64,000 bases of DNA from Marinobacter lipolyticus SM19 (GTDB lineage: Bacteria > Pseudomonadota > Gammaproteobacteria > Pseudomonadales > Oleiphilaceae): assembly GCF_000397065.2 (NCBI RefSeq), contig NZ_KE007306.1, positions 242,311 through 306,310 of the forward strand, given 5' to 3'. The position numbers and the translations under genes were made by a program. Under the pieces are notes generated by a model. That model ran no database searches and had not been told where the DNA came from. It saw only the letters and a list, made by a program, of their open reading frames with translations. Every line of letters begins with the position of its first letter. The stretch's first letter is position 1. This document shows, one piece after another, positions 29,637 to 63,015 of the stretch.

Positions 29637-29637
29637 A

Positions 29638-40076: not shown

Positions 40077-40097
40077 AACTTAACACTAGTCCCAAGT

Positions 40098-41570: not shown

Positions 41571-41595
41571 GTTTTATTGTCCCATCGGGCAGTGT

Positions 41596-42513: not shown

Positions 42514-42528
42514 TGCTTTGGACCTAGA

Positions 42529-43572: not shown

Positions 43573-43610
43573 TATAAGAAAATAAATGAAAACACACCTA
43601 GCGGTACTTC

Positions 43611-44300
43611 TTAATTCAGCTCATATTGCCTAAATAACGAGACCACTTGGTCTGGCGAGCAATTCATCAGAGCATCGATAATCGAGAGATTGGGAACGAA
43701 CTCGGATGCGCCCTGATTGTACTGAACAGGTTGCGACTCAATAAACTTGAGTACAACGCCTTTCTCTGCAAACTCGATATCTGAGTAAAGCGCCCGCCCT
43801 CCCGGGGCATTGATGTAGCAATCGGCTTCGAATTGATGACACAATGCAAGCAATCGCTCTCTGGCACTTGCACTCCTTTCATACTCCAAGTCACTTGTTT
43901 TCATAAAGTGTCTTGTTACACCTAAGTATGAAAAAATGGCTCCGTAGCTTTCGATGCAAATGGAAGCAATCGAACGATCCTCTTTGGTCAGGATCCGCTC
44001 AATCAGAGGGAATATTTTTTCGAAAAATGGCGCCTTTGAGTAGCTCTGGACAATTGTCCTAAGAACTCTGGTAACGTCTTTCGAGAACTCAAGATCCGAG
44101 ATCAACTTATTCGATGAAGCTCCCGGAACAGGCACCGTAAACCGACAGACGCCATTGGGTGACAGAATACTGTTCCTGTTAATGTAACCCTGTTTTATGT
44201 AAGAAACATCGTCGTACACGAGGAATAGATCAGATGCGTATATGAGCTGAAAATAGCCGATGTATGGAAAAAGGTACGGCTGCATGACGGCCAGATTCAT
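43611..44300 (-). CDS. wbqC: WbqC-family protein
   Basis: 229 residues, typical length. Opens MNLAVMQPYLFPYIGYFQLI, the family signature, followed by FLVYDDVSYIKQGYINRNSI. WbqC-like proteins are linked to amino-sugar acylation or glycylation in O-antigen loci; the chemistry is not settled. Overlaps the stop of the DegT aminotransferase by 4 bases (ATGA), so the two are translationally coupled, supporting action on the same amino sugar. Confidence 0.9.
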   Translation of the reverse strand: MNLAVMQPYLFPYIGYFQLIYASDLFLVYDDVSYIKQGYINRNSILSPNGVCRFTVPVPGASSNKLISDLEFSKDVTRVLRTIVQSYSKAPFFEKIFPLIERILTKEDRSIASICIESYGAIFSYLGVTRHFMKTSDLEYERSASARERLLALCHQFEADCYINAPGGRALYSDIEFAEKGVVLKFIESQPVQYNQGASEFVPNLSIIDALMNCSPDQVVSLFRQYELN

Positions 44301-45397
44301 GCTGCAAGCTCCGCCTTAATCACATTAATAACAAGTTCTTGGGCTCTTTCACTGAGATCACTGTATATTGGCAGGCACAGAATCCGGCTGGCAATGTCAC
44401 TCGACACTTCATGACTGTGAGAGTCTCCCAGACAAACAACAGACTCCAGAGACGGGTAGAAATATCTTCTGGTCAGTATGCCCTGATCCTTGAGTGAGGC
44501 TGCTATTCGAATGGTCTGTTCTTCGCTGTCAAATACGACCGGAACATAGGCGAAGTTATAACCGAGACCGGGGGATTGAATCTGGCGCTTAACTGTGTGC
44601 CCAAGTGCCTGCTCATAACGTTGCCAAACTACTGCCCGCGCGTTAAGGTTCATTTCAATCTCATCCAGTACACACAGCCCCATCGCAGCTTGCAACTCGC
44701 TCATCTTGGCATTAATACCTAGCTCCTCAATACATTCTGGCCCAGTGATACCAAAATTGATCATCTTTCTGGCCCGCGCCAAGTCTTCCTTATGCTTAAA
44801 AACTATAGCGCCGCCTTCACCGGTGTGGAACAGTTTGGTTGCGTGAAAGCTAAGAGTGGCTGCGTCGCCATATTTGAGTATGCTTTCGCCTTTGTACTGC
44901 ACGCCAAAGGCGTGGGACGCATCGTAAATGACTTTCAGGTTATTCTTCCGTGCAATAGACCCAATTTCTTCGACGTTGCAAGCATTACCGAATACGTGTA
45001 CTGGCACAACAGCACGGGTGTTTGGGGTTATAGCCGCTTCGATCTTTGCCGGGTCCAGGCACCAGGTATCCGGGTCTATATCAGCGAATACCGGCTCGAC
45101 CCCATCCCACTTCAAGGAGCTCGCTGTAGCAATAAAGGTGAACGGCGTGGTGATGGCCTCCGGGTTCTCGTCTGGCTGGGTATCACTAACTCCCAACGCA
45201 CGATAGGCAATTTGCAGAGCCAAAGTACCATTCGCCACCAGCAACAAGTTTTCTACGCCCAGATATTCTTCCAGACGGCGGGTAAGCTCACGTACCAGCT
45301 GCCCGTTGTTAGTAAACCAGTGGCGTTCGTAGATACCATCAATGTATTTATCGAGTTTTTCTCGACTGGGAAGGTAAGGTTTGGTTACAGGTATCAT
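44297..45397 (-). CDS. DegT/DnrJ/EryC1 sugar aminotransferase
   Basis: 366 residues. PLP-dependent transamination of a 4-keto-6-deoxy nucleotide sugar. The PLP-lysine is in SFHATKLFHTGEGGAIV; VPVHVFGNACNVEEI and YDASHAFGVQYKGE are the family's Asp and His regions. The first residues MIPVTKPYLPSREKLD suit the VioA/QdtB/RffA-like group. The probable substrate is dTDP-4-keto-6-deoxyglucose from RfbB (28587), giving dTDP-Qui4N or similar; a UDP-sugar from WbpM is the alternative. Translationally coupled to WbqC. Confidence 0.9.
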   Translation of the reverse strand: MIPVTKPYLPSREKLDKYIDGIYERHWFTNNGQLVRELTRRLEEYLGVENLLLVANGTLALQIAYRALGVSDTQPDENPEAITTPFTFIATASSLKWDGVEPVFADIDPDTWCLDPAKIEAAITPNTRAVVPVHVFGNACNVEEIGSIARKNNLKVIYDASHAFGVQYKGESILKYGDAATLSFHATKLFHTGEGGAIVFKHKEDLARARKMINFGITGPECIEELGINAKMSELQAAMGLCVLDEIEMNLNARAVVWQRYEQALGHTVKRQIQSPGLGYNFAYVPVVFDSEEQTIRIAASLKDQGILTRRYFYPSLESVVCLGDSHSHEVSSDIASRILCLPIYSDLSERAQELVINVIKAELAA

Positions 45398-45566
45398 TTA
45401 ATAGTACTCTTTAAGTTTACGCCCGGCCCCCTGTAAGGCTCTATTCGACAGAGTCTTTTCTGACAACTAACTAAGGAGGACGTCGATAGCCGCACTTTTC
45501 TTTGCGTGTCTACCCAATACTCTGCCGATTACATTTGTCACATGCCACATAAAAAATAGCAAATGC

Positions 45567-47531
45567 TTAAAAGAGATCTACCATCCCAGCATCAATTATT
45601 AACCGCTTTACTTGGGGAGCAATCGATTCAGCAAAGGAAGCGGTAAGGTGGCTGGAATCCCGGAAAACCACCTTCTCTCCTCGTTTAGCACTGCAAACAC
45701 GGTCTGGGCAAATCAGCTCATTAAAATTGAGAACCGTTACTTTTTCGACTTTTTTCTGGTAGAAATCGAGTGCCTGACTTAGCGGTGGCAACGAATCGTT
45801 TAGCTGAATACTGCACTTTCGGCTTGCAAAGCCTGGAGCCCATCGGTTTCTTGATAGACATTGAGGCCCAGAGAATCCCAGCTTTGGCGTAGGGGTGATT
45901 ACCATAACATGCTTCTCAGCAATACCAGCCAGAGAGCGAATCAACGAAACTCCAGACTCCTCCCATTGCTCCTTGGTATACGGATATCCGGAGCTTGAGC
46001 CGGTAAAAATGACCGTTGGCTCATACCTACCCAAGGTATTAATAATTTTCTCTTTCCATTCTTCACATTCTGTAAAAACTCGATTTATACGATCATAAAA
46101 GAATGGCAAATCTATCATTGGACACGATGATTTTGTTGCAATAATTAAACGCCATCCATTTATGGAAAACAGTTGATATATCGCCGGAAACCACTGTGCA
46201 GCAATGCTATCCCCAAGCAGAACTGCAGTTTTCTCAGCATCATCCGGACCAAAGACACAATATTCAACTTCAGAAGAGTGAAACCACTGGTCACACCCCA
46301 TTTCATATATTACAGGAAGGTTGATTGATTCCCAATTTACAGGCTCCTGATCAGACGATGCCATTAAATCGATCGTCCGCTCTTTCCATACTCCTCCCAG
46401 GACTATCACGAATGCGAATATAGACATGGAAAGCAGGAGCACTCGACCAGGACTCTCACCCCTTAAGTTTGAAATTCGGACGGGTAATTCTATATACCTA
46501 AAACTTAACCAAGCCATCAAAAAGCTTAATGCAACAAGAACAACAGTAACACCCGGAGAGTCATCGACCAACAACCAACCCAAAAGCAACACTGGCCAGT
46601 GCCACAAATACCATGAATAGGATAAACCACCCACAACCACGCCCCCCCTACTTCTCAGAATAAGGTTTAGTGGTGTGTCAATATCAGCGTTAAGCGAGAA
46701 TAGGACCAGCGCACATCCGACGGATGGTAGTAACGCGAAAAACCCGGGATACGACAACCCCTCCCGCAGAGCAAAAAAAGAAATACAGAGAAAGATGGTC
46801 CCCAGAAACTGAATAAAGAGCATAAAGTTTCGTTGAGGCGCCTTCTGAGAAGGCACGCGACCAGCCAGGACGATTAATGCCCCCAAAGCAAACTGCCAAA
46901 CCCGTGAGATTGGCAGAAAAAATCCCCAGACCGGCTTAACTAGAGTGAGAAATAATGAAAAGAAAAATCCTAAAGTAGTGGTTAGCAAAAGGATATAAAA
47001 TAGTCTTACGTTACTTTTACACTGGCTTTTATTAAGAAATACACCAGTAGCAAAGAGCAGAAAAAATGGCCAGAAAAAGTAGAATTGCTCCTCTACCCCT
47101 AGCGACCAAGTGTGCAAAAAAAGATTATATTCATGACCCGGATCAAAATATCCTCTATCGACAAAACTGAGATAAAGGTTATGAACCCAGGCTAAAGAGG
47201 CAATAGCGGAATTTTGTTGTAATTGCTGCTCCATGGGAGAAAGAAACACGAATGCCAAGGAACATACCACAACAACCATAAACAGAAGAGCAGGAAATAA
47301 GCGCTTCACTCTACCTGCGTAAAACGAAAAAACGTCAAGTGAACCTGTTTCTTCTAGTTCTGACAACAACTTTCTTGTTATCACGTATCCGGAAATTACA
47401 AAGAATACGTCCACACCAGTATAACCACCGGAGAGACTGCTCAGTCCTGCGTGGTAAAGAACAACCGCTAACACAGCGATTGCACGGAGGCCTTCGATTT
47501 CAGGAATTTTCGTTGAACAACTATGCTTCAA
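45567..47531 (-). CDS. OafA-type membrane acyltransferase with C-terminal SGNH domain
   Basis: 654 residues. An N-terminal acyltransferase-3 domain (about 10 membrane segments, residues 10-370) begins EIEGLRAIAVLAVVLYHAG and YTGVDVFFVISGYVITRKL, the family's H and R motifs; FLHTWSLGVEEQFYFFWPF is the second signature. The C-terminal periplasmic SGNH part has VLLGDSIAAQWFPAI and a terminal DSSHLTASFA (Asp-x-x-His). It O-acetylates or otherwise acylates surface sugars. Starts at a TTG (47531) with AAAGGG at 8 bases. A short G7 run lies in RSRGGVVVGG. It has 169 empty bases before the DegT gene start. Confidence 0.92.
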   Translation of the reverse strand: MKHSCSTKIPEIEGLRAIAVLAVVLYHAGLSSLSGGYTGVDVFFVISGYVITRKLLSELEETGSLDVFSFYAGRVKRLFPALLFMVVVVCSLAFVFLSPMEQQLQQNSAIASLAWVHNLYLSFVDRGYFDPGHEYNLFLHTWSLGVEEQFYFFWPFFLLFATGVFLNKSQCKSNVRLFYILLLTTTLGFFFSLFLTLVKPVWGFFLPISRVWQFALGALIVLAGRVPSQKAPQRNFMLFIQFLGTIFLCISFFALREGLSYPGFFALLPSVGCALVLFSLNADIDTPLNLILRSRGGVVVGGLSYSWYLWHWPVLLLGWLLVDDSPGVTVVLVALSFLMAWLSFRYIELPVRISNLRGESPGRVLLLSMSIFAFVIVLGGVWKERTIDLMASSDQEPVNWESINLPVIYEMGCDQWFHSSEVEYCVFGPDDAEKTAVLLGDSIAAQWFPAIYQLFSINGWRLIIATKSSCPMIDLPFFYDRINRVFTECEEWKEKIINTLGRYEPTVIFTGSSSGYPYTKEQWEESGVSLIRSLAGIAEKHVMVITPTPKLGFSGPQCLSRNRWAPGFASRKCSIQLNDSLPPLSQALDFYQKKVEKVTVLNFNELICPDRVCSAKRGEKVVFRDSSHLTASFAESIAPQVKRLIIDAGMVDLF

Positions 47532-47576
47532 GACTTCGCGCCCTTTGCCACAAGGAATCCCCTGTCTCTATCAGAT

Positions 47577-48488
47577 TCAAGATCGCCGACTCTCTCTACC
47601 TAATTTCAGCCGGGCTTTCTCAACGTACTTCACGATTATCAGAAGTAAACCGATACCTATGACACAGGCTTTTCTTTTTATGCCAGAAATCTCTCTATTT
47701 CGTAGAACAAACCCAACCTGCTGAATAAGTCTCACCAGTAGAGGTTCCACATGCGCGCCTTCAACCGGCTGAAACTCTGGCGCGCTAATATCGTGCTGCC
47801 CCCCTGCAATACGGCGGGTTTTGGCAACCAATTCTGACAAATTCCTACGCGCGGGATGAGTTACCCTACAAGAAGGCTGATAAACAATCGAGAACCCATG
47901 GGAAGCAGCCCTCGTGCACCACTCATAATCTCCCTTGGACTTAAGATTTTCGTCAAATGTGCCAACAGCCTCAAACACTTCCCTCTTGGCAAATAAGTTA
48001 GCCGTAACCGTGAATCCTTTCCGCTCAATATTAGTTCTTTGTTGAAACCCATAGGTCAAGTCGAATAATTCCGCAGGGGTTGGCCTTTTCTGATCAAATG
48101 GCCGTAGCTCGACCTCTCCACCAATTATCGATGCCCTGTCGCGATAAATCGAATTAACACCATTTTCTATCCAACATGCTTCCGGGATGCAGTCCGCATC
48201 AGTGAATGCAAATATCTGGCCTCGAGCCTGAGAGATTCCTTTATTTCTTGCAGCATAAGAGCCAATCTTTTCATTTTCCTCTGAAAGATGGTAGATCACA
48301 TCGTTTCCGGAGGTTAAAAATGACTTTATTACATCCATAGAATCGTCATTTGAGCCATTATTCACCAGGATCACTTCGAATCTGTCATGTGGATAGGACT
48401 GTCGTGACAATGCCTGCAACAAATGCCGAATTTGTCTTCCGGCATTGTAGTAAGGAACAATAACACTTAGGAAAGGAAATGCTGTCAA
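47577..48488 (-). CDS. GT2 glycosyltransferase
   Basis: 303 residues. FLSVIVPYYNAGRQIRHLLQ opens the GT-A fold; ILVNNGSNDDSMDVI and FAFTDADCIPEACWIENG supply the NDP and DxD sites; RNLSELVAKTRRIAGGQHD resembles membrane-linked transferases of the exopolysaccharide type. Starts at TTG (48488) with AGGTG 7 bases upstream. It is 43 bases downstream of the DUF354 gene and 45 bases upstream of the acyltransferase gene. One hydrophobic stretch near the end (IGIGLLLIIVKYV) could anchor it to the membrane. Confidence 0.86.
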   Translation of the reverse strand: MTAFPFLSVIVPYYNAGRQIRHLLQALSRQSYPHDRFEVILVNNGSNDDSMDVIKSFLTSGNDVIYHLSEENEKIGSYAARNKGISQARGQIFAFTDADCIPEACWIENGVNSIYRDRASIIGGEVELRPFDQKRPTPAELFDLTYGFQQRTNIERKGFTVTANLFAKREVFEAVGTFDENLKSKGDYEWCTRAASHGFSIVYQPSCRVTHPARRNLSELVAKTRRIAGGQHDISAPEFQPVEGAHVEPLLVRLIQQVGFVLRNREISGIKRKACVIGIGLLLIIVKYVEKARLKLGRESRRS

Positions 48489-48531
48489 CGTTTCACACCT
48501 AAAATTATTATGCAGCTCATTAAATAGAACT

Positions 48532-49566
48532 TCACTTTACCGCCATTCTTTCGATTAAATTGGCCGAATACTCAACAACATTAATCGTATCGTCCATTAG
48601 AGCCTTGTGACGCGACAAAATTTCTTCAGGCGAAACCAACAACCAGGCCATAATACTATCTATCAATGCCTTTTCTGATAAGTCTTTGACATTCTGGAGC
48701 AGTCCATAAAGGGACTCCTGTTCATTACAGTAGCCCCGCCCAGTATGTGCCGCATAAATCGCTGGTACACCCAATACCACCGACTCCGAAGCCATTGTTG
48801 CGCTTTCTCCAACGTATAGTCGACAGAAGGCCATAACGTGATGCAGTGAGGACGGACTGCCCTTGTAACTGTATGGGAGTAAATCATCAGGCAAAGGAGC
48901 TTCAGACGATACGATAACTTTTCCCTTCATACCAAGAAAACTCACTACACTTCGCAACAACTCTATAGACCAACCTTTTTCATTCAGATCATGGTTCGCG
49001 TTCCAGGAAACAACACGAACGAGAAAAGTTTCTTCTGACTGAGATAAACCGTTTACCACTGCCTCGGCATACTTTGGCTTGAAGTAGTCGGGGTGCAGGT
49101 ACGACAACTCATGATAACCGTTATATCTTTCACTCCTTTTTGGCAGCCAACCTTCATAAGATCTAGGCACGCTGACGATTGAAGCGAAGGGGTAAGTTAA
49201 AGCATTTTGTAGGGTAGCATTTTCGGTATCATAAAAAACCACAGAAGAAGTATTAGTAATACGCCCCACTTGGGCCACAAAAATTCCACCTATAGCAGAC
49301 ATAACGTCGGGCTTAAACCTACGATTAACTTTATATAGCGCGAAATTTCGGGTTATCAGCTCTTTAAGCATCCCAACTACCCCCCCTTTGCTTGCGGTGG
49401 ATAGTACATAATGCGGGACATCCATATCTTCCAGTAGTTTTACCGTAACTTCTTTCTCCCGACTGGTAACGAGAATCTCATGCCCCCGCTCTTTCAAAAC
49501 AGAGATGGTATTCTTGAAAAAATGAACATGAGCAGGGTGACATATATCGATCAGTATTCTACTCAT
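48532..49566 (-). CDS. DUF354-family GT-B-like protein
   Basis: 344 residues. Begins ILIDICHPAHVHFFKNTI, the DUF354 hallmark, followed by GGIFVAQVGRITNTSSVVFY and FYDTENATLQNAL. The later SSLHHVMAFCRLYVGESATM and VLGVPAIYAAHTGRGYCNEQ look like the sugar-nucleotide site of GT-B folds (UDP-GlcNAc 2-epimerase/MurG-like). Function is unproven; members lie in polysaccharide loci of bacteria and archaea. Overlaps the GT2 gene upstream by 4 bases (ATGA-type), hence translationally coupled. A G7 run is in the coding sequence at the SKGGVVG stretch. Confidence 0.82.
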   Translation of the reverse strand: MSRILIDICHPAHVHFFKNTISVLKERGHEILVTSREKEVTVKLLEDMDVPHYVLSTASKGGVVGMLKELITRNFALYKVNRRFKPDVMSAIGGIFVAQVGRITNTSSVVFYDTENATLQNALTYPFASIVSVPRSYEGWLPKRSERYNGYHELSYLHPDYFKPKYAEAVVNGLSQSEETFLVRVVSWNANHDLNEKGWSIELLRSVVSFLGMKGKVIVSSEAPLPDDLLPYSYKGSPSSLHHVMAFCRLYVGESATMASESVVLGVPAIYAAHTGRGYCNEQESLYGLLQNVKDLSEKALIDSIMAWLLVSPEEILSRHKALMDDTINVVEYSANLIERMAVK

Positions 49567-50468
49567 TTGCTCGACTGGTCTCCCTGAGCTTCCTCAACTC
49601 TATCATCCCCTGAATCGGACTCTTGATACATCAGCTGAGTGATTTGTTCTGATACGAGGCCCATCAAAAAGATCAATATTGCTGTAGTAAAGAGCAGTGC
49701 ACTCATATTTGTAAATCTGCCCACACTTATATATGTAAAAATATAATAACCAATGCCCATGAGCAGAGGGAGAAGACTTAGCGGGAAGAAAAGTTTTAGT
49801 GGGGAATACAAGGTTCCAATTTTGAAAATGATTAACAGAAAACGAATACCATCTTTCAAAGGACGAATATGGCTCTTACCGTCACGCCGGCCAGCGTGGA
49901 TCGCCTCATAAGCCACGGAGTAGCCTGCCCTGAAAAAAGCCATAGTACTCGTTGTCGGGTAGGAAAACCCATTAGGCAGAAGCGACAGGAATTCGCGGAA
50001 CTTCTTTGCTCTCGCCACCCTGAATCCCGAGGTCAAGTCCGCGACTTTATGCCCAGTCATATAGCTGGCCAGCCAGTTATACACTTTATTCGCGACACCT
50101 CTCCCGACATTGGCTTGGGAACCCTTCTGGCGAGAACCGACAACCAGGTCAAACCCTTCATTTAATTTCGCCAACAAACGGGGAATATCCTGCGGATCAT
50201 GCTGGCCGTCAGCATCCATGAACAGTAGTATGTCACCTTTCGCCGCTCTTACCCCTGCCTTAATCGCCGCGCCATTCCCCTTGGAGTAGGGGTGACTGAT
50301 CACCTTGACTCCATCACGGGCAGCTACTTTGGCTGTCTCATCAGTTGACCCGTCATCAACAACGATTATCTCAAGTGGAGAACAAGAAGAACTAATTCCG
50401 TCTAGTACATCAGGCAGTGATAATTGTTCATTCTTTGCTGGAATTATAATACTGAGGGAATCTGTCAT
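49563..50468 (-). CDS. DPM1/ArnC-like GT2 glycosyltransferase with C-terminal membrane helices
   Basis: 301 residues. SLSIIIPAKNEQLSLPDVL, IIVVDDGSTDETAKVA and DILLFMDADGQHDPQDIPRL are the GT2 nucleotide and DADGQ sites of polyprenyl-phosphate sugar synthases. VADLTSGFRVARAKKF and YPTTSTMAFFRAGYS follow. Two membrane helices near the C-terminus (LFFPLSLLPLLMGIGYYIF; LLFTTAILIFLMGLV) anchor it. It may make undecaprenyl-phosphate-linked sugar for a GT-C enzyme such as the next gene, with which it overlaps by 4 bases. It could also modify O-antigen. Confidence 0.87.
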   Translation of the reverse strand: MTDSLSIIIPAKNEQLSLPDVLDGISSSCSPLEIIVVDDGSTDETAKVAARDGVKVISHPYSKGNGAAIKAGVRAAKGDILLFMDADGQHDPQDIPRLLAKLNEGFDLVVGSRQKGSQANVGRGVANKVYNWLASYMTGHKVADLTSGFRVARAKKFREFLSLLPNGFSYPTTSTMAFFRAGYSVAYEAIHAGRRDGKSHIRPLKDGIRFLLIIFKIGTLYSPLKLFFPLSLLPLLMGIGYYIFTYISVGRFTNMSALLFTTAILIFLMGLVSEQITQLMYQESDSGDDRVEEAQGDQSSK

Positions 50469-52381
50469 CCGTCGGTCGCTCGCGCCAGGTTTAATTGTTG
50501 CCTCAACTGTTCTATTTCTTCATTCAATTCAAAACACTGGGTATCCAGAGAATTGCGACACCGAGACTCCATAATGTTATATAGCTCTACCGCATATGAC
50601 CGGTCATCCTGAGCGAGGGCCACCTGAACTGCTGCAAAGAGAACATCCAGTCTTTTCGTTCCTGTGAGCGCATCAGCCAGATATAGACTGGCCCTATCGA
50701 ACTCGCCAGCATAGTAATATATCTTGGCAACAGCAACGTTGAGATCGACCGAAGCCTTCGCGAAGTTTTTGTTTCCCAGAAGAATGAGTGACGCACGTAA
50801 CACCTTCTTTGCAGTGCCTTCAACGCAGCTCCCACTCTCCAACTTTTCCATTATTGACGACAGGGTGTTAATGGCATTTTTGTCATACGCTGCTGCTTGA
50901 GCGCTCTGATAAAGCAGGATTTCGGGGACTGAGCTTTCCACGTCACGTCCAAGGCAGCTTATTTCCAGCCACATCAAAGGTTTCGTTACACTATCGGGGA
51001 ACTCATCAATCGTCTGCGCGTAAAAATCATTAGCCTTGCCATAAAGCCCGTAGGAAACCAACATGGACGCCATATGGCTTTGTGTTCTTGTTGAAGCGGG
51101 GTTTGATTCATACCAACGAACAGCCTGCTTTAGAGGATTACCCCAGATTCTGGCTTCCTGATAGGAAATGAGTGAAAACATCAACGAGAAAAGTATTACC
51201 CCAACCGTGGCCACTGACAGAACCTTCCGGGGGAGCCCGACAACAACGCCAGCCAAAACAATGAACAACCCGACAGACGGGAGATAGTTACGATGCTCAA
51301 AGTACAACTCAAGAGCAAGAACTGAAGACTCAAGCGAGTGACCTATCAAGAATACCAATATTCCGATTGTTATCAGCGGATATTTCTTTCTGACCACAAA
51401 CGAAAGCACTAACATCGCAATTAGCAGCGCAAGCCCAAAGACTGTGCTGATCGGAGCCAACAGACCTCGTGAGACAGGGAAATTATCCCAGAGCACCACA
51501 AAATCCTGCCCCACCGGGTACAAAGTTTTTGCTGCGTACATCGGAATTATTCGAAACTGGCTATACACCCGCTCGAAAAACGAAAAATCCCGATACGTAT
51601 ATGCATCAATGAAGTATTTCTGAAAATCGAAAATGAAAACAGTCAATAATAGGTAGATCGGGCTCAAAACGGCGTTGATTCCAACAAATCGTAACGGCTT
51701 ACTGACTTGCAGCTCGGGAGGCTTCGCCCAAAACACGACCATGCATAGCAGAGGGAGCAGAATTCCATTCTCTTTCGACAACACTGCCATCACCGTGCAC
51801 AGCAACACTGCCACGATTGCAAGCAAAAACCGACAATCAGCGCTCCTGAACCTGGAAAAATAGAGTAGATAGACCCATAGATTGATACCTACCAACATCC
51901 AAAATGCGGCCAGCATTGCCATCCGCTGGATCACATATTGCACCGTTGTTTGATGGATTGGCGATGCAGCCCAGGCAAATGCAATCACTAAAGCAAAAAA
52001 CAGAACCAATCCTAGATTCGTGCCAGCCTTTGGGGACGCGATCGCGCGCATGAGATTGCATAACAGAACAAAAACAAGCAGGAAGTTGGCAGCGTGAATC
52101 AGGTAATTCACAACTTTGAAATAGTATGGCTCTGGCCAACTGTTATGCTGGAAGGCAAAGGTTACTAAAGACGCCGGGCGACCCAAGCTACCAACGCCCC
52201 CTGCGAGGAATGCGTAGTATCTCTCCAAAGAGCCTTCCGATAGGCTTGCCAATCCGGAGAGGTTGCCTGTGTCGTCCAGAATCCAGGCCCCACTTGCTCC
52301 CGGCAAGTTCAGAAATAGCAACGCCCCGGCCAGAATTATCGAGGTAGCATAAACGATGATCCGAGCTTTTAAACTTTCCAT
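50465..52381 (-). CDS. Multi-membrane GT-C/Wzy-like protein with TPR tail, next to pilA
   Basis: 638 residues. About ten to twelve membrane segments occupy residues 8-420. The first loop contains GAWILDDTGN, an Asp-Asp pair as used by many GT-C glycosyltransferases, and VQYVIQRMAMLAAFWMLVG follows. The soluble C-terminal part (about 430-638) has TPR-like helices (STRTQSHMASMLVSYGLYG, LAQDDRSYAVELYNIME). TMTC-like and TfpW-like pilin glycosyltransferases share this style. It lies 54 bases downstream of pilA, beyond a terminator, and overlaps the DPM1-like gene by 4 bases, so pilin glycosylation with a lipid-linked sugar is a good hypothesis. O-antigen polymerase is the alternative. Confidence 0.65.
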   Translation of the reverse strand: MESLKARIIVYATSIILAGALLFLNLPGASGAWILDDTGNLSGLASLSEGSLERYYAFLAGGVGSLGRPASLVTFAFQHNSWPEPYYFKVVNYLIHAANFLLVFVLLCNLMRAIASPKAGTNLGLVLFFALVIAFAWAASPIHQTTVQYVIQRMAMLAAFWMLVGINLWVYLLYFSRFRSADCRFLLAIVAVLLCTVMAVLSKENGILLPLLCMVVFWAKPPELQVSKPLRFVGINAVLSPIYLLLTVFIFDFQKYFIDAYTYRDFSFFERVYSQFRIIPMYAAKTLYPVGQDFVVLWDNFPVSRGLLAPISTVFGLALLIAMLVLSFVVRKKYPLITIGILVFLIGHSLESSVLALELYFEHRNYLPSVGLFIVLAGVVVGLPRKVLSVATVGVILFSLMFSLISYQEARIWGNPLKQAVRWYESNPASTRTQSHMASMLVSYGLYGKANDFYAQTIDEFPDSVTKPLMWLEISCLGRDVESSVPEILLYQSAQAAAYDKNAINTLSSIMEKLESGSCVEGTAKKVLRASLILLGNKNFAKASVDLNVAVAKIYYYAGEFDRASLYLADALTGTKRLDVLFAAVQVALAQDDRSYAVELYNIMESRCRNSLDTQCFELNEEIEQLRQQLNLARATDG

Positions 52382-52383
52382 AT

Positions 52384-52417
52384 AAAAAAGCCCATCGCGA
52401 TTTTAACCGCGATGGGC
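52384..52417 (-). terminator. Intrinsic terminator downstream of pilA
   Basis: On the minus strand GCCCATCGCG and CGCGATGGGC (52408-52417 and 52390-52399 on the plus strand) form a perfect 10-base stem with an 8-base loop, followed directly by six T. This is a textbook rho-independent terminator. The GT-C gene begins 3 bases beyond, so it would be expressed by read-through or from its own promoter. Confidence 0.9.
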
Positions 52418-52435
52418 CCTGACTCCATTCAGAAA

Positions 52436-52894
52436 TTACTTACAAGCAGTCGGCAGGTAGTTATCGGCAATGGTATTGGTTGCTGCCGCAGCACCAAGAT
52501 TACCGCACTCCCAAGTGGAGCCACCGTCAGCAGTGGCAATTGCGAATGTCTCGCCAGCGATGTTGTTATTAACATCAGCTGCCTTCATGGTAGCTGAAAT
52601 CGTCCACGCATTAGTGCCATCGTCAGTGATAGCCATGCTCGCAACATACTTACCAGCAGTAGTAGCTCCGAGATCAGCCAAAGTCGGAACAGTCGCCTTG
52701 TTCTGGAAATATTCAGCAGAAGGAGACTTCAGACCGCCAGTCAGGTTAACAGCCTCAGTCACCTGAGAGCGTGCAATGTAGTCTTGATAGGCAGGAATAG
52801 CGACAGCTGCCAGAATACCGATGATCGCCACAACGATCATCAGTTCGATCAGTGTGAAACCCTTTTGCGCTTGGTTCATCTGAATGTTTTTCAT
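52436..52894 (-). CDS. pilA: Type IV major pilin, prepilin form
   Basis: 152 residues. The prepilin signature is [20 protein letters not shown], with cleavage after Gly12 by PilD and N-methylation of the new Phe; Glu at mature position 5 is present. The rest of the long N-terminal helix follows. Cys130 and Cys151 should form the C-terminal disulfide loop (D-region). The AGAGG-type site 8 bases before ATG 52894 supports that start; an ATG five codons later is less likely. It should assemble into retractile pili for twitching and DNA uptake. Divergent from pilB over 395 bases. A sigma-54 promoter is at 52990-53006 and a terminator follows the stop. Confidence 0.96.
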
Positions 52895-53289: not shown

Positions 53290-55005
53290 ATGGCTACTAA
53301 CAAATCCAACGTAACGCTTACCGGCCTTGCACGTCGTTTTGTGGAGGATGGGTTGCTTGATGAGGCAACCGCGAAGGATGCCTTTATTCAGGCTTCCCAG
53401 AACCGCATTCCTCTGATCACCTATCTTGTTCAGAACAAACTGGCAGATAGCAGCGGGCTGGCCTTTTCTGCCGCCATGGAGTTTGGCGTGTCCGTTCTGG
53501 ACCTCAGCGCCTTCCTTCCTGAAATGCTCCCGGAGAAGGTCGTTGATGAGAAGCTGATCCGGAAACACAACGCGCTGCCTCTATACAAGCGCGGCAATCG
53601 CCTTTTTATTGCGGTTTCTGACCCCACCAACATCCAGGCTCTGGATGAGATCAAATTCAACACCGGGCTCAGCACAGACGCCGTACTGGTAGATGACGCC
53701 AAGCTACATGAGGCCATCGAAAAGTACCTTGAATCCCAGGACTCCACTATGGGGGATCTTGAGGATGCCGATCTTGAAGATGTCGAGACTGAGGGTGGAG
53801 AGCAAGACAACGATAGCGCAGTCAGTGCCAGCGAAGTTGATGACGCGCCAATCGTAAAGTATGTAAATAAGATGCTCCTTGATGCGATTCGCGGGGGGGC
53901 ATCGGACGTCCATTTTGAGCCATATGAAAAAGTCTACCGCGTCCGCTATCGGACAGATGGCATTCTGAAAGAAATGTCCCGCCCTTCGATCAAACTTGCC
54001 CCCAAGATCTCGGCCCGGGTAAAAATCATGGCACAACTGGATATTTCAGAGCGTCGGGTTCCCCAGGATGGCCGGATCAAGATGAAGCTGTCCAAGACCA
54101 AAGCCATCGACTTCCGGGTGAACACACTGCCGACCCTCTGGGGCGAGAAAATCGTTCTGCGAATCCTGGACCCCAGCCAGGCCAAACTGGGCATTGACGT
54201 ATTGGGGTATGAAGAAGAGCAGAAAAAGCTGTATATGGATGCCCTCCAGCAACCGCAGGGCATGATTCTGGTGACCGGTCCCACCGGCTCAGGTAAAACT
54301 GTTTCTCTCTACACTGGACTGAACATTCTGAATACGCCGGAACTGAACATTTCAACTGCGGAGGACCCGGCAGAGATCAACCTGGAAGGCATCAACCAGG
54401 TTAACGTGAACACCAAAGTCGGCCTGGGCTTTGCTGAAGCCCTTCGGGCGTTTCTGCGGCAGGACCCCGACGTGATCATGGTGGGCGAGATCCGGGATCT
54501 GGAAACCGCAAACATTGCTATCAAGGCCGCCCAAACCGGTCACCTTGTGCTATCGACCCTGCACACCAACAGTGCGGCGGAAACGCTGACGCGGATGATG
54601 AACATGGGGGTACCCGCGTTCAACATCGCCACCTCGGTAAGCCTGATCATTGCCCAGCGATTGGGCCGAAGATTGTGCAGTAGTTGTAGACAACCCGCTA
54701 ACGTTCCCCACGATGTGCTTATAGCCGAAGGGTTCACACAGGAACAAATTGATACAGGCTTCACGTTGTACCGCCCCAAGGGCTGTGATAAATGCAATGG
54801 AGGATATAAAGGCCGCGTCGGTATTTACGAGGTGGTCAAGATTACCGATGAGCTGGCAAACATGATTATGGAAGAAGCCAGCTCCATTAAAATTGCAAAG
54901 CAGGCTCAGGCCGAAGGCTTCCCCAATCTTCGCCAGTCCGCCCTGAAGAAAGTGATTCAGGGTGTGACCAGCCTTGAGGAAGCCAACCGCGTGACGAAGG
55001 ATTAA
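53290..55005 (+). CDS. pilB: Type IV pilus extension ATPase
   Basis: 571 residues, the usual length. Cytoplasmic hexameric motor that powers pilus assembly. The N-terminal MshEN/GSPII_E_N region (residues 5-150) is followed by the ATPase: Walker A GPTGSGKTVSLYTGL, Asp box around ISTAEDPAEI, Walker B PDVIMVGEIRDLETA, His box TGHLVLSTLHTNSA. A zinc-binding set is visible as CSSCRQP and CDKCNGGYKGR. The ATG lacks a strong ribosome site. It is followed two bases later by pilC. Orientation opposite to pilA. Confidence 0.97.
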   Translation: MATNKSNVTLTGLARRFVEDGLLDEATAKDAFIQASQNRIPLITYLVQNKLADSSGLAFSAAMEFGVSVLDLSAFLPEMLPEKVVDEKLIRKHNALPLYKRGNRLFIAVSDPTNIQALDEIKFNTGLSTDAVLVDDAKLHEAIEKYLESQDSTMGDLEDADLEDVETEGGEQDNDSAVSASEVDDAPIVKYVNKMLLDAIRGGASDVHFEPYEKVYRVRYRTDGILKEMSRPSIKLAPKISARVKIMAQLDISERRVPQDGRIKMKLSKTKAIDFRVNTLPTLWGEKIVLRILDPSQAKLGIDVLGYEEEQKKLYMDALQQPQGMILVTGPTGSGKTVSLYTGLNILNTPELNISTAEDPAEINLEGINQVNVNTKVGLGFAEALRAFLRQDPDVIMVGEIRDLETANIAIKAAQTGHLVLSTLHTNSAAETLTRMMNMGVPAFNIATSVSLIIAQRLGRRLCSSCRQPANVPHDVLIAEGFTQEQIDTGFTLYRPKGCDKCNGGYKGRVGIYEVVKITDELANMIMEEASSIKIAKQAQAEGFPNLRQSALKKVIQGVTSLEEANRVTKD

Positions 55006-55007
55006 CC

Positions 55008-56228
55008 ATGGCAGAAAAAGCACAAAAGCTTCAGGCATTTGTCTGGGAAGGCAAAGACCGTAAAGGCAATAAAACCAAGGGCGAGGTCTCCGGCACCAAT
55101 CTGGCGCTGGTGAAAGCCCAGTTGCGGAAACAAGGTATAAACCCGGACAAGGTCAAGAAGAAGCCCAAGCCTCTTTTTGGTGGCAGTAAGAAAATTACGC
55201 CGTTCGATATCGCCATGTTTACCCGCCAGATGGCAACCATGATGAAAGCCGGTGTTCCGCTCGTTCAAAGCTTTGATATTGTAACGGATGGACTGGAAAA
55301 CCAGGGGCTAAAGGAACTCATTGGAGCTATCAGAAACGAAGTTGCCTCGGGCACAAGCTTTGCTGGCGCCCTCCGCAGGCACCCAAAGCATTTTGACGAC
55401 CTTTACTGCAACCTTGTGGACTCGGGCGAGAAAGCCGGTGCTCTTGAACAGATGCTTGACCGCATCGCTACCTACCTTGAAAAAACCGAAACATTAAAGA
55501 AGAAAGTCAAAAAGGCGATGACGTACCCGATTGCGGTAATTGTTGTCGCCATCGTTGTCACTGCGATTCTGCTAGTTAAAGTGGTACCTCAATTTGAAAG
55601 CCTCTTTCAGGGTTTTGGTGCGGACCTCCCGGTGTTTACGCAGTTCATCGTCAATCTCTCTGAGTGGATGCAGCAATGGTGGTTTATTGTACTTCTGGGA
55701 ATTATTGGCTCGATCTTCCTGTTCAAAGAGGCGAAGCGACGATCGCAGAAATTTTCAGACTTGGTTGATAAATATTTGCTGAAGCTGCCCGTGGTTGGGG
55801 AGATTCTCGATAAATCTGCAGTGGCCAAGTTCGGCCGGGTTCTATCAACCACCTTCGCTGCGGGTGTACCGCTCGTTGATGCGCTGGAATCGGTATCCGG
55901 GGCCACCGGTAACGCCGTGTATCGGGATGCCGTCAGCAAAATCAAGGATGAGGTTTCCAGCGGCACACAACTTCAGGCGGCCATGAGGCAAACTGACGTT
56001 TTCCCGGTTATGGCTGTACAGCTGACCGCCATCGGTGAGGAATCCGGCAATCTTGATGAAATGCTGGAGAAAGTCGCAGACCATTACGAGAATGTTGTTG
56101 ACGACATGGTTGATAACCTGACAGCACTAATGGAGCCAATGATCATGTCGGTGCTGGGCGTTCTGGTTGGCGGTCTTATCGTCGGCATGTACTTGCCGAT
56201 TTTCCAGATGGGTCAGGTTGTTGGTTAA
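55008..56228 (+). CDS. pilC: Type IV pilus inner-membrane platform protein
   Basis: 406 residues. Inner-membrane partner of PilB, with two T2SSF domains. FDIAMFTRQMATMMKAGVPL (residues 67-86) opens the first domain; AKFGRVLSTTFAAGVPLVDA the second. Three membrane helices are visible (YPIAVIVVAIVVTAILLV; WFIVLLGIIGSIFLF; and the C-terminal MIMSVLGVLVGGLIVGMYL, PIFQMG). Two bases after pilB, so co-translated. Followed by a palindromic repeat and then pilD. Confidence 0.97.
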   Translation: MAEKAQKLQAFVWEGKDRKGNKTKGEVSGTNLALVKAQLRKQGINPDKVKKKPKPLFGGSKKITPFDIAMFTRQMATMMKAGVPLVQSFDIVTDGLENQGLKELIGAIRNEVASGTSFAGALRRHPKHFDDLYCNLVDSGEKAGALEQMLDRIATYLEKTETLKKKVKKAMTYPIAVIVVAIVVTAILLVKVVPQFESLFQGFGADLPVFTQFIVNLSEWMQQWWFIVLLGIIGSIFLFKEAKRRSQKFSDLVDKYLLKLPVVGEILDKSAVAKFGRVLSTTFAAGVPLVDALESVSGATGNAVYRDAVSKIKDEVSSGTQLQAAMRQTDVFPVMAVQLTAIGEESGNLDEMLEKVADHYENVVDDMVDNLTALMEPMIMSVLGVLVGGLIVGMYLPIFQMGQVVG

Positions 56229-56239
56229 AGTCCCCGTTG

Positions 56240-56267
56240 TGTCGGGTTACGCTTTGCTAACCCGACC
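56240..56267. repeat. Dispersed palindromic repeat, copy 4
   Basis: GTCGGGTTA at 56241-56249 and TAACCCGAC at 56258-56266 form a 9-base stem. This is the G/C-shifted relative of the GTCGGATTA repeats at 3062, 9104 and 33916, and stands between pilC and pilD where it could stabilise or end the pilBC message. Confidence 0.75.
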
Positions 56268-56326
56268 TACACTTACCATGCTCGCCCGGTTTCCGGTTTT
56301 TACTGATCCAGCTGTTCGGATATTCC

Positions 56327-57202
56327 ATGCAAATTCTTGATTCCCTGCTGGCCACGCCGTGGCTTTTGTACTTGTCGGTCGTTCTTTTCTCCCTGTGTAT
56401 TGGCAGCTTTCTGAACGTGGTGATTCTTCGCTTACCGAAGATGATGCACCAGGACTGGCGCTGTCAGTGCGAGGAGTTTCTGGAGTTACCGGAGGGACAA
56501 CGCAAGCCTGAAGCGGCGATTACCCTGTCATCCCCAGCCTCTACCTGCCCTTCCTGCGATCACAGGATCCGGGCCTGGGAGAACATTCCGGTGATCAGCT
56601 ATCTGGTGCTGGGCGGTAAATGTTCGTCCTGCAAGACGCGGATCTCGCCCCGTTACCCGATCATTGAGGCATTGACGGCAATTTTCTCGGTTGTGACCAT
56701 CGCCATTCTTGGTCCGTCGGTGTCATCGCTTCTGGCTCTGCTCCTGGTGTGGTCGCTGGTGGCGATGACAATGATCGATTTTGATACCCAGTTGTTGCCA
56801 GACAGCATGACCCTGCCGCTGATGTGGTTGGGACTGGTGCTGAATTACTTTGGTGTGCTGACGGACTTTCACAGTGCTTTCTGGGGCGCAGTGGCAGGCT
56901 ATCTGTCCCTGTGGTCGGTGTACTGGCTGTTCAAACTGGTTACCGGCAAGGAAGGTATGGGGCATGGGGATTTCAAGCTGTTGGCGGCCCTGGGGGCCTG
57001 GCTGGGCTGGCAGTTGTTGCCGGCGGTGATTCTGTTGTCGTCGGTGGTTGGGGCCATTGTGGGGATATCCCTGATGGTGTTCCGCAAGCACGGGCGTGAG
57101 GTGCCGATTCCGTTTGGGCCCTATCTGGCGGCAGCCGGGTTGTTATGCTTGTGGTTCGGTGCCGAGATTCAGGCTTGGTGGTTTGGATTCCTGGGGGCGT
57201 AA
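56327..57202 (+). CDS. pilD: Prepilin peptidase and N-methyltransferase
   Basis: 291 residues with about eight membrane segments. Cleaves prepilin leaders (PilA and pseudopilins) and methylates the new N-terminal Phe. The cytoplasmic domain carries the two CxxC pairs CPSCDHRIRAWENIPV and GGKCSSCKTRISP. The aspartyl protease sites are IDFDTQLLPDSMTLPLM (first Asp) and GMGHGDFKLLAALGAWLGW (GxGD-like second Asp). The stop overlaps the coaE start by one base (TAATG). The conserved pilB-pilC-pilD-coaE-yacG order of Pseudomonadales is kept apart from an insertion between coaE and yacG. Confidence 0.97.
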   Translation: MQILDSLLATPWLLYLSVVLFSLCIGSFLNVVILRLPKMMHQDWRCQCEEFLELPEGQRKPEAAITLSSPASTCPSCDHRIRAWENIPVISYLVLGGKCSSCKTRISPRYPIIEALTAIFSVVTIAILGPSVSSLLALLLVWSLVAMTMIDFDTQLLPDSMTLPLMWLGLVLNYFGVLTDFHSAFWGAVAGYLSLWSVYWLFKLVTGKEGMGHGDFKLLAALGAWLGWQLLPAVILLSSVVGAIVGISLMVFRKHGREVPIPFGPYLAAAGLLCLWFGAEIQAWWFGFLGA

Positions 57203-57801
57203 TGGCGGTTATCGGGTTAACCGGGGGGATTGGCTCCGGCAAGTCTACCGTGGCGCGGATGTTTGGGGCGCTGGGTGTGCACTGGGTGGATGCGGACGAT
57301 GTGGCCCGGCAGGTGGTTGAACCGGGCACGCCAGCTCTGACCCGGATTGCGGAGCATTTCGGGGCAGACATCCTGCAGGCGGACGGCTCTCTTGACCGAG
57401 CCCGGTTGCGAACCATTGTATTTGAGCAGCCGGAGGAGCGGGCCTGGCTCGAGGGACTGCTGCATCCGGTGATCCGGGAGGAGTTGATTCGTCAGCTTCA
57501 TCCAGCCGACTATTCCCTGCCCTATGTGCTGCTGGTGTCACCGCTGTTGCTGGAAACCGACCAGCACCAGTTGGTGGAAAAAGTCGTGGTGGTGGATGTG
57601 CCGGTGGAGGTTCAGCTGTCACGCACCATGGCCCGCGATGATAACGATAAAGCACAGGTGGAGCGTATCATCGCCGCCCAGATGCCCCGCGAAAAGCGTC
57701 TGCAAAAAGCAGATGAGGTGGTGGATAATAATGAGGTGTTGAGCAACGTGGAACGGCAGGTTGGTGAGCTGCACAAGAAGTTTATGGTGGCCTTTGGGTA
57801 A
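57202..57801 (+). CDS. coaE: Dephospho-CoA kinase
   Basis: 199 residues from the ATG at 57202, which shares one base with the pilD stop. Phosphorylates dephospho-CoA, the last step of coenzyme A synthesis. Walker A: VIGLTGGIGSGKSTVARMF. Later DADDVARQVVEPGTPAL, LHPVIREEL and ARDDNDKAQVERIIAAQM (the LID and adenine region) are standard. The frame could extend to 57145 but the extra residues are not family-like. The next gene overlaps its stop codon. Confidence 0.96.
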   Translation: MAVIGLTGGIGSGKSTVARMFGALGVHWVDADDVARQVVEPGTPALTRIAEHFGADILQADGSLDRARLRTIVFEQPEERAWLEGLLHPVIREELIRQLHPADYSLPYVLLVSPLLLETDQHQLVEKVVVVDVPVEVQLSRTMARDDNDKAQVERIIAAQMPREKRLQKADEVVDNNEVLSNVERQVGELHKKFMVAFG

Positions 57802-58873
57802 GAACACTCTGGCAGTCCTGGGAGTCTTGCTTGCGGTATCAGGAACGGTTATTCCGGCCCACGCCGCCGACCCCGTCTTCATCATCAAAGACCCAGCCGT
57901 GCGCGATATTCTCTCACCAGAATCGTTGCCGCCCGATTTTTACGATTTCTCTCCCGAGGACTACTGGCTGGAACCCCGGGACACCTACTGGATAATCGCA
58001 AGTAACTGGGTGCTGCGCCAGGAACGCACCCAGGGCTCCCGTATTCAGGCTCTTGGTGAATGGGCCGACCGCACGTTTTCCGGTGCCGATGCCGGGCTTC
58101 CCAACAATGAAAGTTACTTACGACTAGGCTTCGCTACCGAATCCGAGTACGGCGATCCGGCGCAACTGGATCCTGAGGCGCGGTTTCGTCTGGATATCCC
58201 CACCGTTGAAGAAAAGCTGCGACTGGTCATCGAGAGTGAGAGCGATGAACTGATTCCCCTGGCCGAACGACGCCGGAACCGCCAGTTAACCGAGGAAGAA
58301 CGCTCGGAAACCGAGGCCACCGGTGCGTTGCGTTACCTGTCAGAGGTCGGGGATGCGATCAATCTCAGTAACGATGTCGGTGTCCGGCTACGCTTTCCTA
58401 CAGACGCCTTCTGGCGGGTAACGGCGGACAAGCGCTGGCAACTGGACGACAGCTGGAACCTGAAAGCAGAACAGCGGCTTTTCTACTTTCACCAGGACGG
58501 CTGGGGTACGAGGACGTGGCTGGGAGTTGGCCGGGATCTTGGCAATGGCTGGAAATTCCTGTCAGCCAGTGAGATGGAGTGGGTTCACGAAAAGCGCAAG
58601 TTCGAGATGGCGCAAACCCTTAATTTCCATAAACGCCTGAACAACCGCGCCACCCTGAGCCCACGCGTGGGTATGCTGGGCGAGAGTCAGCCGACCTGGC
58701 GGCAAACCTCTGTTTTTGCGGACGTGACTTATCGGTACCGGTTACACAGTGACTGGCTGTTTGGCGAGATCATTCCGGCACTGGAGTTCCCCAGGGACGA
58801 AAGTTTCAAGGACCGGGGCTCGCTGATTTTGCGGATTGAGCTGTATTTCTCGGGTACCATTGACCGATCATGA
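57794..58873 (+). CDS. Exported, probably outer-membrane protein of unknown function
   Basis: 359 residues from the TTG at 57794, which overlaps the coaE stop. That start gives a clean signal peptide (NTLAVLGVLLAVSGTVIPAHA then A). The first half is acidic and helical (LPLAERRRNRQLTEEER region written as AERRRNRQLTEEER). The second half (about residues 200-359) alternates hydrophobic and polar residues like beta-strands (LSNDVGVRLRFPTDAFWRV, AEQRLFYFHQDGWGTRTW, GSLILRIELYF), suggesting an outer-membrane beta-barrel or a strand-rich domain. No known family was recognised. Its stop overlaps the trmO start by 4 bases, so three genes coaE, this and trmO are coupled. Confidence 0.65.
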   Translation: MGKNTLAVLGVLLAVSGTVIPAHAADPVFIIKDPAVRDILSPESLPPDFYDFSPEDYWLEPRDTYWIIASNWVLRQERTQGSRIQALGEWADRTFSGADAGLPNNESYLRLGFATESEYGDPAQLDPEARFRLDIPTVEEKLRLVIESESDELIPLAERRRNRQLTEEERSETEATGALRYLSEVGDAINLSNDVGVRLRFPTDAFWRVTADKRWQLDDSWNLKAEQRLFYFHQDGWGTRTWLGVGRDLGNGWKFLSASEMEWVHEKRKFEMAQTLNFHKRLNNRATLSPRVGMLGESQPTWRQTSVFADVTYRYRLHSDWLFGEIIPALEFPRDESFKDRGSLILRIELYFSGTIDRS

Positions 58874-59601: not shown

Positions 59602-59668
59602 ACTCGACAGAGTTTATGGCGGTTGATCTATTTATAAAAAGGAATCGTCAGTTCACCAGTCACAGGGA

Positions 59669-62029: not shown

Positions 62030-62067
62030 TCCACTGGCTGAAGACACCGAAGGTTTCCCTGGAAATA

Positions 62068-62259
62068 ATGATGAAAGTAGAGTGCCCCAACTGCAAAAAA
62101 TCCGTCGAATGGAGCGAAAGCAACCCTTTCCGCCCCTTCTGCTGCGAGCGCTGCAAGCTGATTGACCTTGGCGCCTGGGCCAACGAAGAGTACCGGGTTC
62201 CTGCCCAGAATGTGTCGCCGGACGATCTCGACCAGCTGGACGACGACACCCGGCACTAA
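62068..62259 (+). CDS. yacG: DNA gyrase inhibitor / small zinc protein
   Basis: 63 residues. Four cysteines bind zinc: [10 protein letters not shown] and [19 protein letters not shown], the YacG signature. YacG inhibits gyrase by binding GyrB. The gene is usually next to coaE; here it is separated by three inserted genes. Starts with two consecutive ATG codons; GGAA lies just upstream. Confidence 0.94.
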
Positions 62260-62400
62260 TGCTGTATTAACAGGCCCTTACCCCGTTTTAAGTTGAGCCG
62301 CCCGCAACGGCCCGTTACCATGCGTGCATTCGAACAATCGCTGGCACCGGCCTGTTCCGGTGCCGGACTTCGTTCATTGACCCATAAAGGTAGTAAAAGA

Positions 62401-62961: not shown

Positions 62962-62987
62962 CCCTGCCCCCTTCCGGGAAGATCCAG

Positions 62988-63015
62988 ACGGGCGCCATTC
63001 GGGGCGCCCGTTTTT
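62988..63015 (+). terminator. Intrinsic terminator after yfaZ
   Basis: ACGGGCGCC (62988-62996) and GGCGCCCGT (63003-63011) form a 9-base stem with a 6-base loop, followed by a T-run at 63011-63015. Confidence 0.92.

Follow-up and report, generated by a model that had tools for sequence, protein, structure and literature searches.

The 64,000-nucleotide stretch analysed here (the window; positions 242,311 to 306,310 of contig NZ_KE007306.1, Marinobacter lipolyticus SM19) carries, directly behind the major type IV pilin gene pilA, genes for a membrane-embedded glycosyltransferase (GT) of the GT-C type and for a GT2 glycosyltransferase, which we interpret as a dedicated O-glycosylation cassette acting on PilA. 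We put the probability of this reading at roughly 0.77. It draws on results computed here, namely the gene order, the fold and conserved residues of the GT-C protein, its partnership with the GT2, its exclusivity with respect to Wzy_C proteins and its co-segregation with pilin type.

On the minus strand, pilA (52436-52894; 152 amino acids including the leader; Pfam Pilin 2.4e-19, N_methyl 1.4e-10) is followed by a hairpin resembling an intrinsic terminator (52387-52420), the GT-C gene (50465-52381; 638 amino acids), the DPM1/ArnC-like GT2 gene (49563-50468; 301 amino acids; Glycos_transf_2 7e-34) and a gene for a DUF354 protein (48532-49566; DUF354 1e-13), presumably GT-B-like from what is known of its family. 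The GT-C and GT2 genes overlap by 4 nucleotides, as do the GT2 and DUF354 genes; pilB starts at 53290 and is divergent from pilA. The GT-C gene is single-copy in the genome. A first-pass annotation of the window had proposed this same overlapping series, and the open reading frames (ORFs) and Pfam matches bear it out in full. The span it gave for the cassette, 49563-52894, holds the genes from pilA to the GT2 but leaves the DUF354 gene outside.

Fold and family of the membrane protein

An AlphaFold2 model of the GT-C protein, built on an 81-sequence alignment, has a mean predicted local distance difference test score (pLDDT) of 93.7. Eleven hydrophobic helices were picked from it (residues 2-413), followed by a domain resembling tetratricopeptide repeats (TPR) at about 416-638. 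When the model was compared with the PDB using VIA-align, Z was 18.8 for STT3, 17.1 for Pmt4, 16.6 for ALG12, 15.6 for ArnT, 15.1 for AftB and 14.7 for PglB, values to be read beside the tool's warning that a largely helical model scores about 14 even when it has no clear match. We take all six to be GT-C enzymes, as is generally held. The first 18 matches align 302-351 residues at 4.3-5.3 A, and the first 28 are, by title, GT-C enzymes or complexes holding one, except for 7wld_U (a chain of the glycosylphosphatidylinositol transamidase) and 9n9j_I (secretory translocon). Foldseek's own ranking of the same candidates consists mostly of TPR and other helical-repeat proteins.

The residues that are invariant in the family are D36 D37, R68, Q152 R153, K203 E204, R271, Y282, D299, H348, E351 and E362 H363 R364 N365 Y366. 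Most of them, including D36 D37, R68, R153, K203 E204, D299 and E362/H363/R364, fall in predicted periplasmic loops. The D36 D37 pair lies in the first outer loop and is present in 76 of the 81 sequences of the alignment, which includes some with late starts. The protein thus has the features of the GT-C superfamily (8-13 transmembrane helices, a first outer loop bearing an acidic DD, and the fold itself), and by its modelled fold it is a GT-C enzyme.

Sequence searches return little for the membrane part. Neither Pfam nor NCBIfam matches it in the window protein; across 24 aligned family members Pfam gives no significant match there, with weak single matches only, beside TPR models; and NCBIfam at its cut-offs matches none of four members. 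A Wzy_C domain was not found by Pfam in the window protein, and none is listed for the 24 members. Searching PDB sequences with the single protein yields chance matches only, and the 60 matches listed for a PDB profile search with the family are TPR or similar repeat proteins. A literature search over titles and the beginnings of abstracts, with most subscription journals outside its reach, found no description of this family among the results listed.

The first-pass annotation had called the protein GT-C/Wzy-like with a TPR tail and had suggested a fold search. That search led to the GT-C fold, not to a result outside the GT-C and Wzy families. The GT-C half of the description stands on the fold, and the Wzy-like half falls with the missing Wzy_C domain and the GT-C fold; the TPR tail is clear in relatives (Pfam, and the profile against the PDB) and in the structure model, but in the window protein the match is weak (TPR_14, with E 0.07 falling below cut-off).

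Linkage of the GT-C gene to pilA

A GT-C homologue occurs in 29 of 124 Marinobacter genomes, and in 28 of these pilA lies directly upstream on the same strand (SM19 is included in both counts). The exception, G089, has its GT-C on a 5-kb contig together with a second GT-C fragment; there a pilin ORF (L007:613-1062) stands on the opposite strand between the GT-C and DPM1 genes, with no visible upstream pilA. Apart from this second copy, the 124 genomes hold no further GT-C match at E<=1e-10. A plasmid search gave no match.

More widely, 80 named loci were kept from at least 555 confirmed GT-C relatives; two of them (L092 and L108) are from Marinobacter, and others come from Hahella, Acinetobacter, Methylomonas, Thioploca, Rhodanobacter, Dechloromonas and Pseudomonas viridiflava. 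A pilin ORF ends within 700 bp upstream in 61 of the 80 (59 of 78 when Marinobacter is set aside). Sampling 390 genomes from 142 genera of the order turned up the family in 65 genomes and 35 genera. Of the 30 order-level loci, four belong to Marinobacter, the window among them; pilA is upstream in 21 of the 30, or in 17 of the 26 from other genera. Since pilA precedes the gene in 28/29 Marinobacter genomes and 61/80 named loci, the association is not due to chance.

In six loci (L036, L048, L085, L107, L110 and L226) a single pilA is followed by two or three GT-C genes, whose products perhaps act on different sites or sugars.

Occupancy of the slot after pilA

The position behind pilA can be compared across the genus by anchoring on pilB. 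Of 114 genomes with pilB, SM19 was replaced by the window and two (G099 and G011) were omitted as too close to a contig end, giving 111 regions plus the window, 112 in all; contig ends cut some of them short. The slot was defined by the first ORF on the plus strand that is 350 amino acids or longer and lies within about 3.2 kb, and slot classes are single-linkage clusters of these ORFs, with Pfam run on eight representatives. In L116, L152 and L165 the slot ORF sits behind a second pilin. In regions with two pilins, the count took the pilin adjoining the GT-C if a GT-C was present, and otherwise the first pilin.

The slot is occupied by the GT-C in 27 regions, by a Wzy_C protein in 38 (one of which failed to match Wzy profiles on re-check), by a Wzy_C/Wzy_C_2 protein of PglL-like type in 14, by a sulfatase-superfamily membrane protein in five and by a beta-lactamase-family protein in three; a further 23 are unclassed, and two have no pilin on the expected strand. 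A Wzy-type protein (Wzy_C, TfpO/PglL-like or Wzy_C_2) fills the slot in 52 of the 85 regions without GT-C, and none of the 27 GT-C regions holds a Wzy-type protein. The Wzy_C proteins of other Marinobacter thus stand in the very place of the GT-C, and the role that we propose for the latter is that of TfpO/PilO, TfpM and PglL.

The five sulfatase-superfamily cases (L148, L180, L212, L192 and L195) form two clusters of sulfatase/alkaline-phosphatase-superfamily membrane proteins, as judged by Pfam on L148 and L192; these are possibly phospho-type pilin modifiers.

The class of the slot enzyme goes with the type of pilin. A C-terminal Ser or Thr ends 33 of 38 pilins beside Wzy_C and none of the 27 beside GT-C (Fisher p 1.4e-13 for this contrast); next to the Wzy_C_2 type the figure is 5 of 14. 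The window pilin itself ends in NYLPTACK, with Lys as the last residue. The high proportion beside Wzy_C fits the acceptors given in PMC12645811, a C-terminal Ser of pilin for TfpO and a C-terminal Ser/Thr for TfpM. For the GT-C enzymes, internal acceptor sites are predicted because none of their pilins ends in Ser or Thr. Ser+Thr content does not separate the pilin classes (0.235 for GT-C, 0.211 for Wzy_C and 0.240 for Wzy_C_2). In a tree of 79 pilins, a quick tree of short proteins in which near-copies inflate clustering, the GT-C label needs 5 changes, compared with a mean of 22.7 after shuffling, and none of 500 shuffles was as low.

The GT2 partner and the source of the sugar

The GT2 has the marks of the DPM1/ArnC/GtrB type: a GT2 domain, a DxD motif (DAD at residues 85-87) and homology to solved members, with matches to ArnC at 8.8e-23, dolichyl-P-mannose synthase at 1.4e-16 and sll0501, which we take to be GtrB, at about 1e-12. 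Enzymes of this type load a sugar onto polyprenyl phosphate. The best NCBIfam match is AglJ, below cut-off. Within the genus, 26 of the 27 GT-C regions contain a DPM1-like GT2, and the remaining one stops at a contig end; none of the 85 pilB-anchored regions without GT-C contains such a gene. From these sequence comparisons the GT2 is predicted to be a polyprenyl-phosphate sugar synthase and the partner of the GT-C. In other cassettes the third position is taken by a DUF354 protein, a GT4 or a UDP-GlcNAc 2-epimerase-like protein; this variation suggests that the pilin glycan differs between cassettes.

The first-pass annotation had suggested a possible pilin glycosylation cassette joined to the O-antigen locus, with a lipid-linked sugar that could come from the same locus and even carry sulfate. 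Glycosylation of pilin draws good support from the gene order, the Wzy_C exclusivity, the co-segregation with pilin type and the GT-C fold. The use of a common O-antigen unit in the manner of PilO finds no support, given the cassette's own GT2, the absence of Wzy_C and the pilin C-terminus. In a PilO/TfpO-like system the membrane protein would supply pilin with an O-antigen unit made by the Wzx/Wzy pathway, and its place next to pilA and the sugar-biosynthesis genes of the same window agree with this. However, it has a GT-C fold, no Wzy_C domain and a GT2 of its own, and the pilin ends in Lys where PMC12645811 names C-terminal Ser (TfpO) or Ser/Thr (TfpM). We therefore regard such a transfer as very unlikely, and reject a PilO/Wzy-type identity of the membrane protein on its domain content, its fold and the C-terminus of the pilin. 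Since the enzyme has its own GT2 partner, does not co-occur with Wzy-type proteins and goes with pilins lacking a C-terminal Ser/Thr, it is likelier to be TfpW-like, with a dedicated polyprenyl-phosphate sugar, than PilO-like.

Several results weigh against a dedicated pilin cassette. Besides the VIA warning, the Foldseek ranking and the near-copies in the pilin tree, the GT2 lies within 1.5 kb downstream in just 42 of the 80 named loci, although several of these contigs end early, and no GtrA-type flippase match, to which the flipping step could be assigned, was found in the genome. Moreover, 19 of the 80 loci lack a pilin within 700 bp upstream: four start near a contig edge and two have a pilin 1.0-1.9 kb upstream, but in the remaining 13, with neither, the enzyme may have another substrate. 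These 13 loci would suit a different scheme, in which the target of GT-C and GT2 is lipopolysaccharide or some other surface glycan, as with GtrB/GtrC or ArnC/ArnT, and the two genes merely share the pilA promoter. The resemblance to ArnC/ArnT points the same way, and GT2 plus GT-C pairs do act so elsewhere; genetic data in PMC5836110 place CsbB/YfhO on lipoteichoic acid. Set against the linkage to pilA in many genera, the exclusivity with Wzy_C in the slot and the co-segregation with pilin type and C-terminus, this scheme appears improbable.

Proposed mechanism

For the dedicated pilin cassette, the donor lipid, the sugar, the acceptor residues, the role of the TPR-like domain and the choice of pilin as substrate are the parts that we infer. 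On the cytoplasmic side, undecaprenyl phosphate would be charged by the GT2 (49563-50468) with a sugar taken from a nucleotide donor. The lipid-linked sugar may be lengthened by DUF354 and the following GT2 and decorated by an acyltransferase, and it would be flipped across the membrane. The GT-C (50465-52381), with a periplasmic DD/KE/R site, would then transfer the sugar to internal Ser/Thr residues of membrane-stored PilA before assembly, its TPR-like domain probably holding the pilin. The terminator after pilA would keep the enzyme far below the level of pilin.

A broader proposal is more tentative, and as a whole we lean against it: that the cassette represents a widespread, so far unmodelled bacterial counterpart, for type IV pilins, of the eukaryotic DPM1-TMTC pair, in which the GT2 charges polyprenyl phosphate and the TPR-bearing GT-C glycosylates internal residues, as an alternative to Wzy_C-type enzymes that is exchanged between close relatives as a pilin-enzyme cassette and is here extended by a block perhaps making a sulfated glycan. 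GT-C pilin glycosylation is known from TfpW; if the reading as a pilin cassette is right, it would be a common alternative to TfpO/PglL-type systems. The three genes pilA, GT-C and GT2 make a small set that can be tested in a marine genus, and the internal acceptor site is a clear prediction.

Comparison with known systems

The arrangement resembles that of TfpW, a pilin glycosyltransferase of P. aeruginosa according to PMC11841053, in that a gene of GT-C fold lies directly 3' of pilA behind a terminator and its product would modify the pilin of its own locus; the likeness is one of gene order and fold. Here the partner is a DPM1/ArnC-like GT2, and the window's cassette, unlike that of TfpW, has no TfpX. 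Reportedly (Kus et al. 2008), TfpW is the GT-C arabinosyltransferase of group IV pilins in P. aeruginosa. The D-arabinofuranose route of TfpW uses other enzymes.

In seven loci of the family the GT-C is immediately followed by a TfpX/TfpZ-like gene, an order reminiscent of pilA-tfpW-tfpX. Six were recognized by clustering (of three checked with NCBIfam, one is above cut-off and two are below), and the seventh, L260, is above cut-off. In L260 (G424) a GT-C in the pilA region, whose search match contains a single in-frame TGA, precedes the TfpX/TfpZ gene, and the DPM1-like GT2 comes after that. Five Marinobacter loci (L113, L122, L168, L169 and L203) have a shorter GT-C, with open frames of 575-586 amino acids from which most of the TPR-like part is missing; the 240-amino-acid gene next to it clusters with a TfpX/TfpZ-family protein, and the two that were checked with NCBIfam are below cut-off.

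TfpO/PilO, TfpM and PglL differ in belonging to the Wzy_C family and in using O-unit type donors, and TfpO and TfpM also in their C-terminal Ser/Thr acceptor. The eukaryotic TMTC1-4/PMT O-mannosyltransferases, which work with DPM1, are similar in their 11 transmembrane helices, C-terminal TPR on the outer face and partner like Dol-P-Man synthase (features and motifs of human TMTCs as given in PMC7801869). The GT-C has TMTC-like motifs, a DD and an R-P in loop 1, an R in loop 2 and a K-E in loop 3, so that 11 helices with an outer-face TPR, motif M1 (DD) and motif M4 (KE) are all found. Three further motifs are missing: M3 RxD (R153 has no Asp two residues on), M6 PxxP (none in 335-347, the ninth transmembrane helix) and M7 ERxxY, to which E362-H-R364-N-Y366 is similar in part. 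The TMTC domain PF08409 (DUF1736) has no match in the window protein or the 24 aligned members. Because PF08409 and three motifs are missing, we do not claim TMTC membership. A class-wide search for PF08409 matched 0 of 185 genomes, with the controls likewise unmatched.

In ArnC/ArnT, GtrB/GtrC and CsbB/YfhO, too, a cytoplasmic GT2 charges undecaprenyl phosphate and a GT-C (or similar) enzyme acts outside. Their acceptors are lipid A, O-antigen or teichoic acid, whereas here the acceptor would be pilin.

Apparent cassette exchange and the adjoining block

In three genomes (G092, G113 and G077), pilB is 97-98% identical to that of the window, and so is a second gene of the regions compared (a DegT gene in G092, an ABC1 gene in G113 and G077), but the GT-C is just 28-29% and the pilin 45-47% identical. 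From these identities, pilin and enzyme appear to be swapped together between close relatives or related species. Such joint swaps would fit selection for surface change by pilus-specific phages or grazers.

Downstream of DUF354, and also on the minus strand, lie a GT2 gene (47577-48488), which recurs in the cassettes of the two relatives closest by GT-C (G042, 67%; G002, 66%), and a gene for an acyltransferase_3 plus SGNH protein with predicted sugar O-acylation (45567-47531), which recurs in the compact G042 cassette (62%). Further candidate members of the pilin system on this strand are a DegT aminotransferase (44297-45397), a WbqC protein (43611-44300), two sulfotransferases (42529-43572 and 41596-42513), a Wzx-type flippase (40098-41570) and two GT2s (39102-40076 and 38134-39105). 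On the far side the interval is marked by ABC1 (36012-37979), beta-CASP (34641-36002) and CysQ (33016-33873). G+C content is 46.5% for 38134-52894, against 56.7% for 53290-64000 and 56.8% for 24000-37979. In other species, L114 for example, the stretch from pilB to beta-CASP holds only pilA, an oligosaccharyltransferase (OTase) and a second pilin; it is this correspondence that places the 38.1-49.6 kb block within the pilin-modification interval, and the block may build the pilin glycan.

One version of the dedicated-cassette reading goes further: the whole block would make an oligosaccharide, with amino sugar, acyl and possibly sulfate groups, on the lipid that the GT2 had charged; flipped by the Wzx-type protein, this oligosaccharide would be transferred whole to pilin by the GT-C. 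AglJ/AglB in Haloferax is the model for whole-oligosaccharide transfer, and here AglJ is the nearest NCBIfam match of the GT2, though below cut-off, the best GT-C fold match is the oligosaccharyltransferase STT3, and an ABC transporter is next in three Acinetobacter cassettes (Pfam on one). The position of the block, its low G+C content and its flippase, GT2s and two sulfotransferases agree with this version. Nevertheless, the nearest relatives by GT-C lack most of the block. The compact region of G042, whose GT-C is the most similar, runs pilA, GT-C (67%), GT2 (83%), DUF354 (79%), GT2 (67%), acyltransferase (62%), beta-CASP, and shows no match to the sulfotransferases or the Wzx-type flippase between cassette and boundary gene; in G002, DUF354 and GT2 are followed by an ORF on the opposite strand that resembles a sulfotransferase (29% identity). 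The likeness to PMT/ArnT and the GT2 suit the transfer of a single sugar equally well. We consider transfer of the whole glycan possible, at somewhat less than even odds.

No Wzy_C protein is encoded in the 38.1-49.6 kb block, and the two Wzy_C matches of the genome are on other contigs. The block likewise has no Glycos_transf_4 enzyme; one, predicted to be initiating, is found at 25672-26715 in a separate sugar block (about 12-27 kb).

The terminator after pilA

The hairpin (15 pairs, 8 of them G-C, with a T-run) is separated by 5 nucleotides from the GT-C start codon. A terminator scan of the window found five sites, compared with a shuffled mean of 5.3, so there is no overall excess, but this hairpin is by far the longest among them. 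Elements resembling terminators stand behind pilA in most regions (23 of 26 with GT-C, 34 of 38 with Wzy_C, 14 of 14 with Wzy_C_2), against 30 of 408 random stretches; the GT-C count omits L217 (G096), where the GT-C is ~11 kb from pilB. The element is likely to be an attenuator, an arrangement described for pilin-accessory cassettes in PMC11841053.

Other observations

A TfpW reference was sought through loci bearing TfpX/TfpZ. In the candidate examined, the large gene that separates pilA from TfpX/Z turned out to encode a membrane protein resembling spermidine synthase. In a genome of the order (L282:2978-6070, minus strand), pilA is followed by a 1030-amino-acid ORF, whose predicted membrane protein includes a domain like that of spermidine synthase, and then by a TfpX/TfpZ-family gene, a further candidate pilin accessory.

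In the window's separate sugar block, the low-G+C part at 13063-17168 (minus strand) encodes three adjoining proteins of 439, 572 and 317 amino acids with no Pfam match at 1e-5, one of which may be the polymerase of that block.

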